Shown here: positions 10,860-55,815 of the stretch, piece after piece | How the letters are laid out: every line of letters begins with the position of its first letter | Position numbering within the stretch: the stretch's first letter is position 1 | Assembly (NCBI RefSeq): GCF_011305415.1 | Contig: NZ_JAANOQ010000001.1 | Location: 310,001-374,000 of the forward strand | Direction: 5' to 3' | Source of the DNA: Flavobacterium bernardetii | Lineage (GTDB): Bacteria; Bacteroidota; Bacteroidia; Flavobacteriales; Flavobacteriaceae | DNA length: 64,000 nucleotides | The notes under the pieces: model-generated | The model's input: the letters and a program-made list of their open reading frames with translations, nothing else | Database searches by the model: none | Told to the model about the DNA's origin: nothing | Position numbers and translations under genes: made by a program

Positions 10860-10957
10860 TTTATAAGGTTAAAAGTTTAAAAGGGTTTGCTAATTGCTTT
10901 TCACTAATCACTAATCACTTTTTACTTTTTACTTTTGCCTTTTTACTTGGCTCTTTT
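10860..10957. repeat. Heptanucleotide array 1 (3' end of OstA gene and junction)
   Basis: About 14 consecutive 7-base units on the plus strand, such as TTTATAA, GGTTAAA, AGTTTAA, AAGGGTT, TGCTAAT, TGCTTTT, CACTAAT (twice), CACTTTT, TACTTTT (twice), GCCTTTT and TACTTGG. The unit drifts but the phase stays at 7. The array covers the junction with the aminotransferase gene and the last codons of the OstA-like gene. Confidence 0.85.
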
Positions 10958-12618
10958 TTAACTTCTTTCTTCCCATATTCCGTAGTTTCTTTCATTACGT
11001 CCATGGGTTTTTTCTCTTCTTTTTCTTTCTTTTGCGTTTCTGCTTTTATTTTTTCATCGATGGCTTTTTCTTCTTCTGGAAAAATGTTTTCTAGAGAAGT
11101 TATTTTTTCATCAATTCGCCAAACAAAACCTCGAAGTCGCCTTGCATTTTTCGGGAAATCTTTATCTGGATAGGTATCGCTTAAAATTTGTTTGAACGAG
11201 GTTAATTCTAAAATCTGATTGTTCTCTAATTGCATGTTAATACTACTTGAAACTCCTTTGTCAATACCAACCATTTCATCAGCATCGTTATACATGAAAT
11301 AGATTTTTTCGGTATTTTTTATTAAATCAACTTCGTATAATTTATTGTCTCTAAATTTTCCATACAAAAATTGTCCTTTTACTTGGTTGTAATTATCTTC
11401 TCCAAGTGTGTCTTTTTGTATTAAAAATGCATTGTTTAGAATTTTTAATGAATCTAGTTTTTCGGTTTTATTATTTCCAATTAAATGAATTTCGTCGCCA
11501 GTCATTTGGTTGTCGCTATTCCAAATTACGGGTCTACCTATTAGTTTTGTTAATTGTGTTTTGTAGTTCGAATGGATCGAATCACATTTTCCGCTCATAT
11601 CAGTTTTGAAAAAACGCACATTATTAAAAGCTCTAATCGTTCTATCTTCTTGTGGACCAGTTACTAATATTTTTTTACCGTGTAAATACATCGTGTCTTT
11701 TTCCACCAACGTTTTTACCAACGCTTTTTTGGTAATAAACATCGAATCTTTTTTAGTGCCACCAACATTTCTAAACACTTCTGCATAATGTCCGGTTGCA
11801 ATTAAATTGTTAATTGTGTCGGTTATTTTTACATTATTTGTGGCTTTAGCGAAATTTCTCTTTCTGTCGTAATTGATTATATCGCCTTCCACTTTCCGAT
11901 TGTTGTAAACGATATCTGATTTGTCGAGCAGTCTTCCAACATCATTTTTAGTGTCATAAAATCCTTTCGAAGTATGGATTACGTTTTCTTTACTGGTAAT
12001 TGTGCTAGGTCCGTAAACATAAGCGTGACCAGAATTATCGTAAAAATCTAAATTGTTAGTTTTAATTGTCACTTGTGGATTTACAACTGTAACGGCTGTT
12101 TTGAAAACATATTTTTTACTGTTTAAAAAATATCTTCCTGATTTACTTTTTAAGGTATTTTCTTTATTTACGATTGTACCCCAGCTTTTATAATAGGCTT
12201 GTTGAATACTTCTGTCGAAATAAATTGTATCGGTAGTTAAGTTAGAATCTGGTGAACGTAAATTTACATTTCCTGTTGCAAAAGCGAATTGTGTTTTACC
12301 GTTATATTCGGCATATCGGCTATTCATTACAATCGTATCACCTTGGTTTAAGGAAACGTTTCCGAATGCTTTTACATAATCTTCATCAGTATAATGATAG
12401 GCTTTGTTGCAGTTAATTCTAACACCGTTATGTTCCACTTGAACATTTCCAGTAAATACAATCGCACCAGGAATTTCATTTTGGTTTTTATCAATAAAGT
12501 CAGAATGTAAAATTTTAATTCCATTCGGATTTGTTGGAGCAATGGGTTGAGTTGGTGTTTGTGCATTTCCAAATAAAATGGAGAATATCAAAACGACAGC
12601 ATATATATATTTTCTCAA
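10915..12618 (-). CDS. OstA-like protein (LptA/OstA domain), LPS transport related
   Basis: A 567-residue exported protein with signal peptide MRKYIYAVVLIFSILFGNAQ. The mature part is a series of beta-jellyroll strands of the LptA/OstA type (for example GAIVFTGNVQVEHNGVRINC, FAFATGNVNLRSPDSNLTT, YVYGPSTITSKENVIHT). Such proteins bind lipopolysaccharide in the periplasm. The only possible start is TTG at 12618: an in-frame TGA lies six codons upstream and no ATG lies in the signal. The last 15 residues are lysine-rich, ending KKAKVKSKK, and are encoded by heptad repeat DNA. The native C-terminus may therefore have been extended by the repeat. Confidence 0.85.
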   Translation of the reverse strand: MRKYIYAVVLIFSILFGNAQTPTQPIAPTNPNGIKILHSDFIDKNQNEIPGAIVFTGNVQVEHNGVRINCNKAYHYTDEDYVKAFGNVSLNQGDTIVMNSRYAEYNGKTQFAFATGNVNLRSPDSNLTTDTIYFDRSIQQAYYKSWGTIVNKENTLKSKSGRYFLNSKKYVFKTAVTVVNPQVTIKTNNLDFYDNSGHAYVYGPSTITSKENVIHTSKGFYDTKNDVGRLLDKSDIVYNNRKVEGDIINYDRKRNFAKATNNVKITDTINNLIATGHYAEVFRNVGGTKKDSMFITKKALVKTLVEKDTMYLHGKKILVTGPQEDRTIRAFNNVRFFKTDMSGKCDSIHSNYKTQLTKLIGRPVIWNSDNQMTGDEIHLIGNNKTEKLDSLKILNNAFLIQKDTLGEDNYNQVKGQFLYGKFRDNKLYEVDLIKNTEKIYFMYNDADEMVGIDKGVSSSINMQLENNQILELTSFKQILSDTYPDKDFPKNARRLRGFVWRIDEKITSLENIFPEEEKAIDEKIKAETQKKEKEEKKPMDVMKETTEYGKKEVKKEPSKKAKVKSKK

Positions 12619-12710
12619 GGTTTCTATTTTTTGTCAAATTTAAGTAAAATGTATAAAAATGTGTAGGTATTAAGAATATTTTATGGTTTTTTTTATAAGA
12701 CAAGGCTTTT

Positions 12711-12735
12711 GCCACAAAGACACGAAGGCGCAAAG
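12711..12735. repeat. Short octanucleotide-periodic repeat
   Basis: GCCACAAAGACACGAAGGCG followed by CAAAG shows a period of about 8 bases (CACAAAGA, CACGAAGG, CGCAAAGA). It lies in the 232-base gap between the LRR gene and the OstA-like gene. Sequences of this style recur in flavobacterial intergenic DNA, but only this copy is in the window. Confidence 0.4.
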
Positions 12736-12772
12736 AATTAATATTAGATTGTGTTACCTTTTGGGAATAAAA

Positions 12773-12843
12773 AACCGCAAATTCTTAGAGTATTAAATCT
12801 ATGAATTTGCGGTTGAGATACTGAAACGAGTTCAGTATGACAA
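12773..12843. repeat. 71-bp palindromic repeat, downstream copy; terminator-like
   Basis: A 12-bp stem AACCGCAAATTC / GAATTTGCGGTT (12773-12784 and 12803-12814) is followed by the family A half-element with TACTGAA and TTCAGTA. On the minus strand the stem is followed by a T run, so it can terminate the LRR gene. It matches 15547-15617 at 66 of 71 positions. Confidence 0.88.
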
Positions 12844-12850
12844 AATAGGA

Positions 12851-15436
12851 TTATTCTTTTATGAATTGACTGGTACTAAAACCATCATTCGTATTTATTT
12901 TGATGAAGTAATTTCCAGTTTTTAAATTCGAAACATCAACTTTTAGAGCATTTCCAGTTTGAACCGTTACTAATTGTCCAATTGGGTTATAAATTTCAAT
13001 CGAGTTAATTTCAATTGCCGATTTTAAGGCAATATTCAATTCGTTAGATGTTGGATTTGGGTATAAACTGAAATAATTCGCAAATTCGAAACTCGGATTA
13101 TTTAAAGCTGCAATTGTTGTAGTTGCTGTATTGGTAACAATTGGGAAATTATAATCGAAATAAATATTTGCTGAGTTGCTAAATGTATTTCCGATTACTA
13201 AACTTGGTAAAGTTTTGATTTTAAATGCAATGTAACCATCGTTATTTGCATCATCGAAAGGTAAATTGATGTTTTCAAAAATGAATTCAACCTTATTACC
13301 TGAAATTTTTGTAACATAATTATGACTTGCGTTTAAAGGAACTAAGCTTGAAACATCAAATTTAGTGGTGTCAATCATATCTTTTACTACGATATTTTCT
13401 GCAGGGAAAGTTCCTGTGTTTTCAAAGCGAATCATATAATGTACATATTTTCCAACTTCACTTGGAGAAATTGTTGTTCCTTGTAAACACGTTTTGTCAT
13501 TTGGATCCAAAGAGTTAACAACAAGTTGTTTTAATCCAAAAGTATTGTCAATTGGTAATTCATCTGAATCTAATTGAGTTATTTCAGCTATATAAATTAA
13601 GAAATCACCTGCATTAACTGCTGGACTTTCAACTGGCGAATTTACATTCAATACAACACTGATTTCTCTAGTTTCAAAAGGATTTAAATTACTATAATTG
13701 AAACTTAAATTATTTAATGTTTGAGTTGTAAATGCTGGGTTTGTTGAAACGATATCTAAAACAGCGTCATTAAATTGTAAATTAATCGTTCCATTCTCAA
13801 CTTGATTACCTTTATTTTTATAGATGATTTTATAGATAGCGTCAAAACCTGGTCTGGCCACAGTTGTTGGAATAATAGAAACTTCAACGTCGTGTTTTAT
13901 TCCGTTTGGTCTAATACAAAAATCTTGTGTAAACGGACTAGTTTGTGTTGGGAAACTCATAACTACATTTGGAGGTGTAGCAGTAAAATAATTAGGATTT
14001 TCTAAAATTGGAGTTATTGTGTATTGACCAGCTTGTACAGGTATAGCATAATTACCAGAATTATTTGAAATTATTGAACCAGTTATAATTCCATCAGTAA
14101 TTGAATATTTTAAATTTGGGAAAGTACTATCAGTAATATCACATCCGTCATTTTCATTATCAAATTTTTGTTGTCCTTCAATGGTGTAAAATTCTCCACC
14201 TGGTACAAAAGAACAATATGTATTTACATGACAGTTTATATATCCAAGTGCTTGTATTTTATTTTGTATTAAATTTATTTGTGTTTCATCAGCACATATA
14301 TATTGTAAAGTTGGATTTCCAATTAATGAAATAGACGTATAGTTCATGTCCATGGGACTATTGTATGATTTTTCGATACTGTTATTTTTTATATTTAACA
14401 TTGTTAAAAGATTATCCTTACAATTTAGTATTGTTAAATTAAAATTATTTGAAACATCTAAATTTGTTAATTGATTATTTCGACAATCAATAATTTCTAA
14501 TAAATTATTATTTGAAACATCTAAATTTGTTAATTGATTATTTTGACAATCAATAGATTCTAATAAATTATTATTAGAAATATCTAAGCCCGTTAATTGA
14601 TTATTACTAACATCTAATCCTTTTAAACTAATGTTTTGAGTAATATTAATGTTTGATATTTCAATGTCGTCACAATTTAGATATATTAAATTAATGTTTT
14701 GAGACAAATCTAAATTAGTTATTGGGTTATATGCACATGTCAAGCGTGTCAATAATATATTTTGAGATAAATTTAAATTTGAAATATTATTACTATGGCA
14801 TTCAAGTATTTCAAGATTAATGTTAGAAGTTGTATTTAAGATTGATAATTGATTTGAACTACAAATTAATGTTTTTAATGCTGTGTTTTGAGATATATTT
14901 AAATTTGTAATTTGATTGTCACAACAAAACAAAATTTCTAATTGATTATTTTGAGTAATATTTAAATTTGAGATTTGATTATAATGACAATGTAAAGACG
15001 TTAATAAAGGGTTTGATGATAAATCTAAATTTGCTAGTTGATTGTTTGAACAATCTAAACTTTTTAGATTAACGTTTTGACTTAAATCTAAATTTGTAAT
15101 TCCTGTAAAACTAGATCTTAAACTGATTAAATTTGTGAAATAATTTAATCCTTCTAAGCTTGTAATATTTGATCCTGATAAGTTTAAGATAGTAATTATT
15201 TCTGCTTCTTGTATCTGAATTTCACCATCATTATTTGTGTCTATAGAGTTAGATGAATTTGTAGACCAAGAGTTTGATGTTGAATCATAAAATGGTTGTG
15301 CTGAAGAAGCAATATTATTATTGTAATTTGCTTCTAATAATTTTGCTTTAAAATTGGCATCAGGAAAATTGATAATTTGTGCTTTTGCGCAAATTGTACT
15401 AATTACTAAAATTAGTGTAAAAGTAAGTTTCTTCAT
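12851..15436 (-). CDS. Secreted leucine-rich-repeat protein with type IX sorting domain
   Basis: About 861 residues from the ATG that opens a clean signal peptide (MKKLTFTLILVISTICAKAQ); ATGs at 15439 and 15454 are alternatives. An EF-hand-like loop DTNNDGEIQIQEAE is near residue 70. About 300 residues of 21-residue LRR units with NQLTNLDVSNN follow. A conserved repeat-type domain of secreted flavobacterial proteins comes next (SLDPNDKTCLQG, VKDMIDTTKFD, IYFDYNFPIVTNT). A type A sorting domain closes the protein (FSLYPNPTSNELNI to the end). It is exported by the type IX system and probably displayed for adhesion. It is flanked by two copies of a 71-bp repeat. Confidence 0.9.
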   Translation of the reverse strand: MKKLTFTLILVISTICAKAQIINFPDANFKAKLLEANYNNNIASSAQPFYDSTSNSWSTNSSNSIDTNNDGEIQIQEAEIITILNLSGSNITSLEGLNYFTNLISLRSSFTGITNLDLSQNVNLKSLDCSNNQLANLDLSSNPLLTSLHCHYNQISNLNITQNNQLEILFCCDNQITNLNISQNTALKTLICSSNQLSILNTTSNINLEILECHSNNISNLNLSQNILLTRLTCAYNPITNLDLSQNINLIYLNCDDIEISNINITQNISLKGLDVSNNQLTGLDISNNNLLESIDCQNNQLTNLDVSNNNLLEIIDCRNNQLTNLDVSNNFNLTILNCKDNLLTMLNIKNNSIEKSYNSPMDMNYTSISLIGNPTLQYICADETQINLIQNKIQALGYINCHVNTYCSFVPGGEFYTIEGQQKFDNENDGCDITDSTFPNLKYSITDGIITGSIISNNSGNYAIPVQAGQYTITPILENPNYFTATPPNVVMSFPTQTSPFTQDFCIRPNGIKHDVEVSIIPTTVARPGFDAIYKIIYKNKGNQVENGTINLQFNDAVLDIVSTNPAFTTQTLNNLSFNYSNLNPFETREISVVLNVNSPVESPAVNAGDFLIYIAEITQLDSDELPIDNTFGLKQLVVNSLDPNDKTCLQGTTISPSEVGKYVHYMIRFENTGTFPAENIVVKDMIDTTKFDVSSLVPLNASHNYVTKISGNKVEFIFENINLPFDDANNDGYIAFKIKTLPSLVIGNTFSNSANIYFDYNFPIVTNTATTTIAALNNPSFEFANYFSLYPNPTSNELNIALKSAIEINSIEIYNPIGQLVTVQTGNALKVDVSNLKTGNYFIKINTNDGFSTSQFIKE
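14444..14632. repeat. 63-bp tandem repeats inside the LRR gene
   Basis: Three consecutive 63-bp units (14444, 14507, 14570) encode one 21-residue LRR each. Units 1 and 2 differ at only a few bases. The third is more diverged. Confidence 0.85.
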
Positions 15437-15546
15437 CATAGTTTCTTTTTTCATAAGATGCAAAACTTTGTAATTGGTTGCGTCTTTTTTTAAGAAATTT
15501 CTTATTTTAATAATAAGTGTTTGTTTTTTAAGAAACTATCTAAAAA

Positions 15547-15617
15547 AACCGCTAATTCTTAGAATATTAAATCTATGAATTAGCGGTTTAGATACTGAAA
15601 CAAGTTCAGTATGACAA
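15547..15617. repeat. 71-bp palindromic repeat, upstream copy
   Basis: Stem AACCGCTAATTC / GAATTAGCGGTT (15547-15558 and 15577-15588) followed by the family A half-element. Compared with the copy at 12773, the A-T pair in the stem has become T-A on both sides, so pairing is kept. It lies upstream of the LRR gene. Confidence 0.88.
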
Positions 15618-15644
15618 GTTTACGTTGACTTTTGGGAATAAAAA

Positions 15645-15664
15645 AATCCCGATTGCTCGGGATT
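15645..15664 (-). terminator. Terminator of purA
   Basis: Perfect 8-bp stem AATCCCGA / TCGGGATT with a 4-base loop TTGC and a T run on the minus strand, 9 bases past the purA stop. Confidence 0.92.
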
Positions 15665-15672
15665 TTTAAAAT

Positions 15673-16944
15673 TTATCTTGTGATAGTTTGTGTTCTGTCT
15701 GGTCCAACAGAAACTACTTTTATTGGCACTTCTAATTCTTTTTCAATGAACTCGATGTATGTTTTTAATTCTGATGGTAATTCTTCGTAAGTTGTCATAC
15801 CAGTTAAATCTGCTTGCCAACCTTTCATTTCTGTATAAATTGGTTGTACATTTTCTGGTTCAATATTGTATGGAAAATGTTTTAATGTTTTTCCTTTATA
15901 GTTGTAAGCTGTACAGATATTTAACGTTTCGAATCCAGATAAAACATCACCTTTCATCATGTATAATTCAGTTACACCATTTACTTCAACAGCGTATTTT
16001 AAAGCTACTAAATCTAACCAACCACAACGACGAGCACGACCAGTAACTGAACCGAATTCATTACCAATTTTTGCCATATTGGCTCCATCTTCGTCAAAAA
16101 GTTCTGTTGGGAAAGGTCCACTTCCTACGCGAGTTGTGTATGCTTTGAAAATTCCGAAAACTTCTTTTACTTTATTAGGAGCAATTCCTAAACCTGTACA
16201 AGCTCCAGCAGCTGTTGTATTTGAAGAAGTTACAAATGGATACGTTCCAAAATCTACATCTAATAAAGAACCTTGCGCGCCTTCTGCTAAAATTGTTTTT
16301 CCAGCTTTTAATGCTTTGTTTAAATATTCTTCTGAATCAATGAAAGTTAATGTTTTTAATTCTTCCACAGCTGCGAAAAATTCCTCTTCCATTTCCGCTA
16401 AATTGTACTGCAAGTTTACATCGTAAAAAGCAATCATAGCTTCATGTTTGTCAGCTAAAGCGCGGTATCTTTCTTTGAAATCAGCCATTTCAATATCACC
16501 AATTCTCAAACCATTTCTACCAGTTTTGTCCATATAAGTTGGACCAATTCCTTTTAAAGTAGAACCAATTTTCGCTTTTCCTTTAGAAGCTTCAGATGCT
16601 GCGTCTAATAAACGGTGCGTTGGTAAAATTAAATGTGCTTTTCTTGAAAGTAATAATTTTGATTTGATGTCTAAATTAAATTTTTCTAATCCTTCAATTT
16701 CTTTTTGAAACACTACAGGGTCCATTACTACACCATTTCCGATAATATTTACATTATTTTTATGAAAAATTCCAGAAGGAATCGTTCTTAAAACATGCTT
16801 AATTCCGTCAAATTCAAGTGTGTGCCCAGCATTTGGTCCACCTTGAAAACGAGCAATAATGTCGTATTTTGAAGTTAATACATCGACGATTTTCCCTTTT
16901 CCTTCGTCACCCCATTGTAATCCAAGTAGTAAGTCTACATTCAT
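15673..16944 (-). CDS. purA: Adenylosuccinate synthase
   Basis: A 423-residue enzyme that joins aspartate to IMP using GTP, the first step from IMP to AMP. The GTP loop is GLQWGDEGKGK (Asp13 catalytic). The second catalytic residue is His41 in NAGHTLEFD. Other family segments are GIGPTYMDKTGRNGLRIGD, AEGAQGSLLDVDFGTYPFVT and VGSGPFPTEL. Length is normal. It lies 57 bases downstream of the Fur-family gene across a perfect 20-bp palindrome, with no promoter-like element visible on this strand in the gap. It may be read from the fur promoter. Confidence 0.97.
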   Translation of the reverse strand: MNVDLLLGLQWGDEGKGKIVDVLTSKYDIIARFQGGPNAGHTLEFDGIKHVLRTIPSGIFHKNNVNIIGNGVVMDPVVFQKEIEGLEKFNLDIKSKLLLSRKAHLILPTHRLLDAASEASKGKAKIGSTLKGIGPTYMDKTGRNGLRIGDIEMADFKERYRALADKHEAMIAFYDVNLQYNLAEMEEEFFAAVEELKTLTFIDSEEYLNKALKAGKTILAEGAQGSLLDVDFGTYPFVTSSNTTAAGACTGLGIAPNKVKEVFGIFKAYTTRVGSGPFPTELFDEDGANMAKIGNEFGSVTGRARRCGWLDLVALKYAVEVNGVTELYMMKGDVLSGFETLNICTAYNYKGKTLKHFPYNIEPENVQPIYTEMKGWQADLTGMTTYEELPSELKTYIEFIEKELEVPIKVVSVGPDRTQTITR

Positions 16945-29640: not shown

Positions 29641-29709
29641 TTGTCATTCTGAACTTGTTTCAGAATCTTTTAATTATTGAGAGAAGCTGAAACAAGTTCA
29701 GCTTGACAA
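29641..29709. repeat. Dispersed palindromic repeat, family A, complete copy
   Basis: Inverted arms of 23 bases (29641-29663 and 29687-29709) pair with two mismatches; the core is CTGAACTTGTTTCAG. It fills the gap between the MoxR stop and the DUF58 start, so it lies inside the operon. Related copies are at 12813, 15588 and 55745. Confidence 0.88.
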
Positions 29710-55738: not shown

Positions 55739-55744
55739 GAAAAC

Positions 55745-55815
55745 TTGTCATTCTGAATTTATTTCAGAATCTCAACTAAATATTATTAGAATCTGAAATA
55801 AGTTTAGATTGACAA
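55745..55815. repeat. Dispersed palindromic repeat, family A, second full copy
   Basis: 28-base inverted arms (55745-55772 and 55788-55815). The left arm begins TTGTCATTCTGAATTTATTT and the right ends TTTAGATTGACAA. It lies between the transketolase terminator and the bestrophin stop. Confidence 0.88.

Follow-up and report, generated by a model that had tools for sequence, protein, structure and literature searches.

We analyzed a stretch of 64,000 nucleotides of the Flavobacterium bernardetii genome (contig NZ_JAANOQ010000001.1, positions 310,001 to 374,000; hereafter the window), in which a gene for a secreted leucine-rich-repeat (LRR) protein lies between a gene that we take, from its sequence, to be purA (adenylosuccinate synthetase) and an OstA/LptA-like gene (lptA). 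The LRR gene is bracketed by 2 direct copies of a 71-bp element, at 12773-12843 and 15547-15617, each composed of a repetitive extragenic palindromic (REP) unit joined to a hairpin with a U-run. The following features were identified:

12851..15463, minus strand: secreted LRR protein gene, an open reading frame (ORF) of 870 aa from TTG, with in-frame ATGs shortly downstream
12815..12843, minus strand: REP unit 1, with a TTGTC foot, a ATACTGAA stem, and a 5-nt loop, beginning 7 nt past the LRR stop codon
12773..12814, minus strand: hairpin H1, with a 12-bp stem, a 1x1 internal mismatch, a 4-bp upper stem, and an 8-nt loop; proposed terminator of the LRR gene
12769..12774, minus strand: U-run of H1 (AAAAAA on the plus strand), its last 2 bases within the stem
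15589..15617, minus strand: REP unit 2, the second copy of the REP unit
15547..15588, minus strand: hairpin H2, with a T-A pair at element positions 7/36
15542..15548, minus strand: U-run of H2 (AAAAAAA on the plus strand), its last 2 bases within the stem

The 2 copies of the REP-hairpin element

Comparison of the 2 copies confirmed the initial annotation in its description of 71-bp elements at 12773 and 15547 with 5 differences, 2 of them an A-T to T-A swap in the stem. The mismatches fall at element positions 7, 18, 36, 43, and 56, with positions 7 and 36 being partners in the 12-bp stem (A-T in copy 1 and T-A in copy 2), positions 18 and 56 loop bases, and position 43 just beyond the 12-bp stem. 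The repeat extends to 75 bp at 93% identity (blastn E 2e-27). The boundary between the REP and the hairpin in copy 1 is at 12814/12815, the REP being the part nearer the stop codon. Against dinucleotide shuffles, the REP plus hairpin folded with z of -7.9 (copy 1) and -6.1 (copy 2), equaled by 0 of 200 shuffles, and the hairpin alone with z of -8.0 and -9.3 (0 of 200 in each copy); for the REP of copy 1 alone, z was -4.2 (1 of 200). Both strands are foldable, and the hairpin has an immediate U-run on the minus strand only, which is also the strand of the genes flanking both elements. H1 and H2 have a common loop and REP, neither of which is shared by the other AACCGC hairpins of the genome, and they are thus copies of one another. 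The whole window matched no Rfam family at the gathering score, and no match to the element with its surroundings (111 bp) was found in a plasmid collection.

We consider it probable that each 71-bp element is a 3'-end module, transcribed from the minus strand, in which a TGTC-tagged REP is followed by a Rho-independent terminator, with H1 ending the LRR mRNA, H2 acting at most as a back-up, and the downstream module being the older one of which the upstream module is a local copy. The direct basis of the terminator reading is the orientation of the elements, the stem with its U-run, the closeness to the stop codon, the recurrence of both halves, and the pairing retained at the swapped position across many hairpins, from which we infer that transcription would terminate at H1 and H2 in the cell. 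LRR transcription would pass through the REP and stop in the U-run of H1, and the REP hairpin may protect the mRNA 3' end or slow the last ribosomes. According to work cited in PMC12306157, translation in Escherichia coli is lowered by REPs that lie no more than 15 nt from a stop codon. H2 would catch read-through beyond T1, the terminator hairpin of purA itself, and insulate the LRR gene from purA; as it sits after T1 and before the LRR gene, it would be only a second terminator. The function of ordinary 3'-end modules is sufficient to explain the elements. The elements resemble intrinsic (Rho-independent) terminators in having a stable stem-loop and a U-run just past the stop codon, and differ from the usual ones in the long, partly A/U-rich 12-bp stem, the internal mismatch, and the presence of 2 near-identical copies.

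Terminator-type hairpins and the pairing of their stems

Hairpins of the general form AACCGC...GCGGTTTTTT with a U-run were identified in 278 of 298 genus genomes, and few matches to the reversed pattern were found. A tight type, CCGCNRATTC...GAATTNGCGG, was present in 40 of 299 genus genomes, giving 70 hairpins for analysis, of which 30 were inspected for a T-tract (1 per genome, 30 genomes). At least 6 T in 10 were present on the side expected for the upstream gene in 27 of them (either side for convergent genes), and none of the 30 was located between divergent genes. In the F. bernardetii genome, 8 places matched the loose pattern AACCGC...GCGGTT, including 6 that were palindromic and 5 with a T6 tail (0 in the reversed control).

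The initial annotation had taken the A-T to T-A swap as direct evidence that the hairpin is under selection. With 5 uniform random substitutions on 71 bp, the probability of at least 1 compensated pair is 0.032, and that of a compensated pair with no broken pair is 0.0028; such values are suggestive and not proof of selection. Two copies alone are weak evidence, as they hold a single double change and intrastrand palindrome correction could make both changes in one step, so the claim of directness did not stand. The constraint itself is supported, from other hairpins and from covariation in the REP half described below. Among the 70 similar hairpins, in which both-strand rows were collapsed by hand and not all are independent (G113 and G142 share one), the swapped pair was Watson-Crick in 66, with 4 pair types (51 A-T, 8 T-A, 4 C-G, and 3 G-C, next to 1 T-G and 3 mismatched), compared with a shuffle mean of 41 and a maximum of 53. 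The 3 G-C cases (G091, G136, and G241) come from hairpins failing the T-tract test. Among the matches listed for the general AACCGC...GCGGTTTTTT form, 126 terminators remained after both-strand and identical rows were collapsed by hand, so that a listed row may be missed, and 106 of these had a Watson-Crick pair (G-C in 2) and 8 a G-U pair at this position, with a shuffle mean of 39 and a maximum of 56. Since these are mostly unrelated terminators and the outer stem was fixed in both searches, the counts indicate that the class keeps the pair, and not descent with covariation of the 2 copies at hand.

A one-step palindrome correction, in which one arm is copied from the other after a single mutation, would also produce the double change and would make it uninformative on selection. 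Template switching of this kind is known to act on long near-perfect palindromes, the swap is carried by just 2 copies in this genome, and uncorrected mismatches occur in 2 orthologs; against this, the position stays paired, through several pair types, in independent terminators from unrelated loci. We regard correction as the source of the swap as possible though doubtful, and as pairing is kept at unrelated loci, the terminator class is constrained whatever the mutational route. Hairpin inversion was excluded as a source by reasoning, because a reverse-complemented palindrome keeps its arms. The compensatory reading of the swapped pair is thus supported, and the swap would have been retained because the terminator requires its stem.

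Several observations weigh against the terminator and module interpretation. The T-tract was missing in 3 of the 30 tight-type hairpins, and the loose AACCGC...GCGGTT pattern without a U-run was not enriched in this genome (8 places vs 6 for the reversed pattern). An automated terminator scan did not flag H1, H2, or T1, none of which fits its rule of loops of 3-8 and a T-rich window directly after the longest stem. Across 8 hairpins and 12 pairs, 6 of 96 cells were unpaired, half of them at the innermost pair; 5 of the 6 belong to 2 orthologous hairpins of metagenome-assembled genomes (MAGs) at purA-lptA, with 2 and 3 broken pairs, and the sixth to a hairpin copy of the F. bernardetii genome itself on C34. 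Finally, a terminator-like hairpin was identified at most 130 nt downstream of 9 of 40 REPs in tandem context and between the stop codon and the REP in 6 of the 40, and the opposite-strand reading of that downstream stretch gave 8 of 40 (mono-nucleotide shuffles, 2%). With 9 of 40 vs 8 of 40 on the opposite strand, REP plus terminator is no general unit of this genome.

Only the copy in this genome had a REP within 120 nt of a tight-type hairpin among the 30 loci inspected. A single mobile genus-wide REP-hairpin composite was rejected, with the exact pattern found in just 8 of 298 genomes (9 places) and locus L213 being without the terminator stem. A REP followed by a hairpin behind a gene was identified in G406, a case additional to these 9 places, at a gene presumably leuS, and also in G021, G119, and G126 at what is apparently one shared locus. 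A literature search of titles and abstract openings returned no report of this Flavobacterium REP-terminator composite. At L212, L214, and L215, behind what is apparently the same gene, a REP is joined to a AAACCGCTTCTT hairpin with a T-rich tail, with C-G, G-T, and A-T, respectively, at the outer variable pair of the REP; at L213, the tail half of the REP is repeated (GTTTCAGCATCTCGTTTCAGCATCTC), as if the unit had slipped. Palindromes of the form CCGCGAATTC...GAATTCGCGG at L114, L115, and L123 lack a T-tract on the terminator side and may be a repeat class of their own.

The REP half and its family

The REP consists of a TTGTC foot, an 8-bp stem (ATxCTGAA/TTCAGxAT), and a 5-nt loop, and its core, with up to 2 mismatches, had 97 matches genome-wide vs 6 for the reversed pattern. 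The fetched loci of this genome, which do not cover every 2-mismatch place, held 96 REP sites, and 86 were kept after dropping 9 with fewer than 3 of the 5 foot letters and 1 with 3 core mismatches. TGACA (reverse complement TGTCA) was present in 77 of the 96 sites and in 76 of the 86 kept, which were selected for at least 3 of these 5 letters. Stem position 1 was A-T in 80 of the 86, and position 2 was T-A or A-T in 82. The initial annotation had proposed a statistical test of covariation across genomic copies, and this test gave a clear result here: the 2 outer variable pairs were Watson-Crick in 80 and 82 of the 86 units, above the shuffle maxima of 53 and 61. Slid pairings of the arms dropped to chance, and the remaining pairs were nearly invariant and uninformative.

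A head-to-head partner within 90 nt was identified for 48 of the 86 units, 35 units were single (among them REP units 1 and 2 of the 71-bp elements), and 3 had other arrangements. By simple ORF calls, 77 units were intergenic and 9 were inside called ORFs; 74 of the intergenic units followed a gene, at a median distance of 41 nt from its stop codon, whereas 2 were flanked by divergent genes and the last was at the edge of a locus. Within the window, inverted head-to-head pairs were also observed at 29641-29709 and at 55741-55815, the second with a diverged core.

In its described features, the Flavobacterium REP fits the CGTC-tagged REP superfamily. As described in PMC3733652, these elements often carry the tag TGTC and have 8- to 9-bp stems with A-T in the first 2 positions and loops of 4-5 nt; their dimers are mostly head-to-head, no dedicated transposase is known, and in H. 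neapolitanus, CGTC-1 dimers occur as insertions within 41-bp palindromes. That paper lists Bacteroidetes among the carriers, and Flavobacterium does not appear in its main text. The REP described here shares with PMC3733652 the TGTC tag variant, the 8-bp stem with A-T pairs first, the 5-nt loop, the short unpaired tail, the mostly head-to-head dimers, the location behind genes, the complementary stem variants, and the lack of a flanking transposase, whereas the associations set out in the consulted parts of that work do not include a tandem arrangement with a terminator. GTAG REPs with their REP-associated tyrosine transposases (RAYTs; PMC2817692) are similar as multi-copy palindromes in inverted pairs, with palindromicity kept by complementary mutations, and differ in that the tag here is TGTC and none of the RAYT-like genes of this genome has the repeat on its flanks. 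For 2 Flavobacterium species, the RepRanger paper (PMC12306157) reports thousands of predicted palindromic elements, with numbers only in a table. Both halves of the 71-bp element are of known kinds; what is new is a local instance in which they are joined and duplicated. It offers a small, clean example of how stems are preserved through change, both in a bacterial terminator and in a CGTC-type REP family of Flavobacterium.

Mobilization of the REP half by a RAYT as a miniature element, with the hairpin carried along, is very improbable. One protein (L058) passes the REP-associated tyrosine transposase model at 101 bits (cut-off 80), which would speak for it; opposed to this, the 5 Y1_Tnp-type genes have no credible REP within ~1.5 kb on either side, the lone match near the L058 gene being chance-like (5 substitutions of 22), and H1/H2-type hairpins occurred without a REP within 120 nt in 29 of the 30 inspected loci. 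A RAYT gene between 2 inverted repeat copies, as in a REPtron, was not found in this genome, and RAYT-driven mobility was rejected with no RAYT or IS200-type gene in the genome flanked by the REP.

Gene turnover at the purA-lptA junction

Further features of the junction are the neighboring genes, the purA terminator, and a 17-bp direct repeat located outside both 71-bp elements:

15673..16944, minus strand: purA, the upstream neighbor (ORF)
15642..15667, minus strand: T1, the terminator hairpin of purA, AAAAATCCCGA...TCGGGATTTTT on the minus strand
15629..15645, minus strand: A, upstream copy of the 17-bp direct repeat, overlapping the T-run of the purA terminator
12758..12774, minus strand: A', downstream copy of the 17-bp direct repeat, TTTTTTATTCCCAAAAG on the minus strand
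10915..12618, minus strand: OstA/LptA-like gene (lptA), the downstream neighbor (ORF, family match)

The close relatives comprised 11 matching genomes in a sample of 398 genus genomes, together with loci fetched separately. Besides this genome, the LRR gene was identified between purA and lptA in F. terrigena (L164) and G090, and it was absent from this junction in F. difficile, the MAGs L160 and L185, and F. gelidilacus, so that of 5 close relatives, 2 have the gene there and 3 lack it. A weak (30%) LRR match on the other strand at the junction of L163 was not counted as the same gene. In a five-gene tree, G090, which has the LRR gene, branches outside the MAGs without it, and the node that unites F. 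difficile with F. terrigena is supported at 0.215. The LRR gene is variable in its presence at the purA-lptA junction.

A single REP-hairpin follows the LRR gene in F. terrigena and, without T1, directly follows purA in L160 and L185; F. difficile has T1 with a REP-like remnant before it, and G090 and F. gelidilacus have other terminators at this junction. In F. terrigena, F. difficile, and G090, purA is followed by a T1-like hairpin. None of the 6 relatives (the 5 close ones and F. gelidilacus) has the upstream module, and a scan from purA to lptA in 25 named loci identified 2 modules nowhere, with REP cores beyond chance-like matches in L160 and L185 only and the AACCGC hairpin in L160 and L164. 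Because a REP-hairpin precedes lptA in 3 of the 6 relatives, the downstream module is probably the older, and the upstream module, found in this genome only, is best read as its local copy. The REP of F. terrigena (L164 7775-7812) is interrupted by a small unrelated hairpin (TCCCGACACTTCGGGAT), its arms being kept in part.

The initial annotation had proposed that the direct repeats are a substrate for recombination that deletes the LRR gene, and had suggested looking for strains with 1 repeat and no LRR gene. That state does exist, in L160 and L185. Had the 2 elements formed a recombination cassette, crossing-over would delete the LRR gene and give on/off populations. Their direct orientation, their 93% identity over 75 bp, the patchy LRR presence among close relatives, and the LRR-less alleles with 1 REP-hairpin point this way, and a junction through the element scored slightly above one through the 17-mer for L160 (137 vs 126) and L185 (146 vs 123), a better fit that would be expected given the single REP-hairpin of each. 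On the other side, the upstream copy is in 0 of the 6 relatives and 0 of the 25 named loci, so no allele seen arose by recombination between the 2 elements, and the proposed role in deletion finds no support. L160 and L185 also lack T1, which repeat-to-repeat excision would leave, and for the F. difficile site, a junction at the 17-bp repeat outside the elements scored higher than one at the 71-mers (257 vs 211). For efficient homologous recombination, a 75-bp stretch with 93% identity is short, and alleles with a single recombinant element and unchanged flanks were identified in none of the 6 relatives or 25 named loci. Excision between the 71-mers was rejected for the alleles seen, given the private upstream copy, the lack of T1 in L160 and L185, and the 17-mer junction in F. 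difficile, and we consider such a cassette highly improbable.

The 17-bp repeat provides a different route, in which the block REP2-H2-LRR-REP1-H1 entered as one unit between 17-bp targets or was lost from F. difficile by recombination there. The 15-base core of the 17-mer has 2 exact matches in the genome, these 2 places only, and 5 with one mismatch (3 in the reversed control). The flanks joined at the 17-mer match the F. difficile site, with 175 of 202 aligned bases identical in an end-to-end alignment, whose 46 gap columns fall mostly at the ends and in a 21-bp remnant resembling a REP. Opposed to this, H2 is missing in F. terrigena and G090 although both carry the LRR gene, and the sequence that follows T1 there does not match A closely, the similarity fades over ~29 bp at 83% with no sharp end, and no transposase ORF lies within the block. 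We judge this route unlikely.

Within the reading of the elements as 3'-end modules, a further and quite unlikely idea is that REP-terminator modules behind housekeeping genes are landing or exchange points at which secreted LRR genes are loaded and lost at purA-lptA, the terminator being copied along and giving insulation on both sides. If this were true, 3'-end modules would serve gene gain and loss and not transcription ending alone. The junction is in any case a spot of gene turnover: the presence of the LRR gene varies among closely related species, and 3 more distant loci hold unrelated inserts of 2.4-4.4 kb. The purA-lptA gaps of 4231 (L163), 4378 (L168), and 2364 (L177) bases, compared with 8-251 in the other LRR-less loci, represent these other insertions.

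The gene order relA-fur-purA-lptA-aminotransferase, in which all names except OstA/LptA are presumptive, is conserved in Flavobacteriaceae. The LRR protein has LRR_4 and DUF7619 domains and a C-terminal type IX secretion system (T9SS) sorting domain (Por_Secre_tail PF18962, 50 bits; TIGR04183, 49 bits). A paralog at G000:C1:652576-655002 shares 73% identity across residues 332-870, and its separate match to the N-terminal region contains one in-frame stop; in the C-terminal part, the paralog and the F. terrigena gene are about equally close to the LRR gene of the window (81% and 79%). Before the lptA-like gene, a CACAAAG-type repeat (TTGCCACAAAGACACGAAGGCGCAAAG) was observed at 12709-12739; its first 21 bases have 11 close genome copies, with 0 for the reversed pattern, and it is kept in F. 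difficile at the same place.

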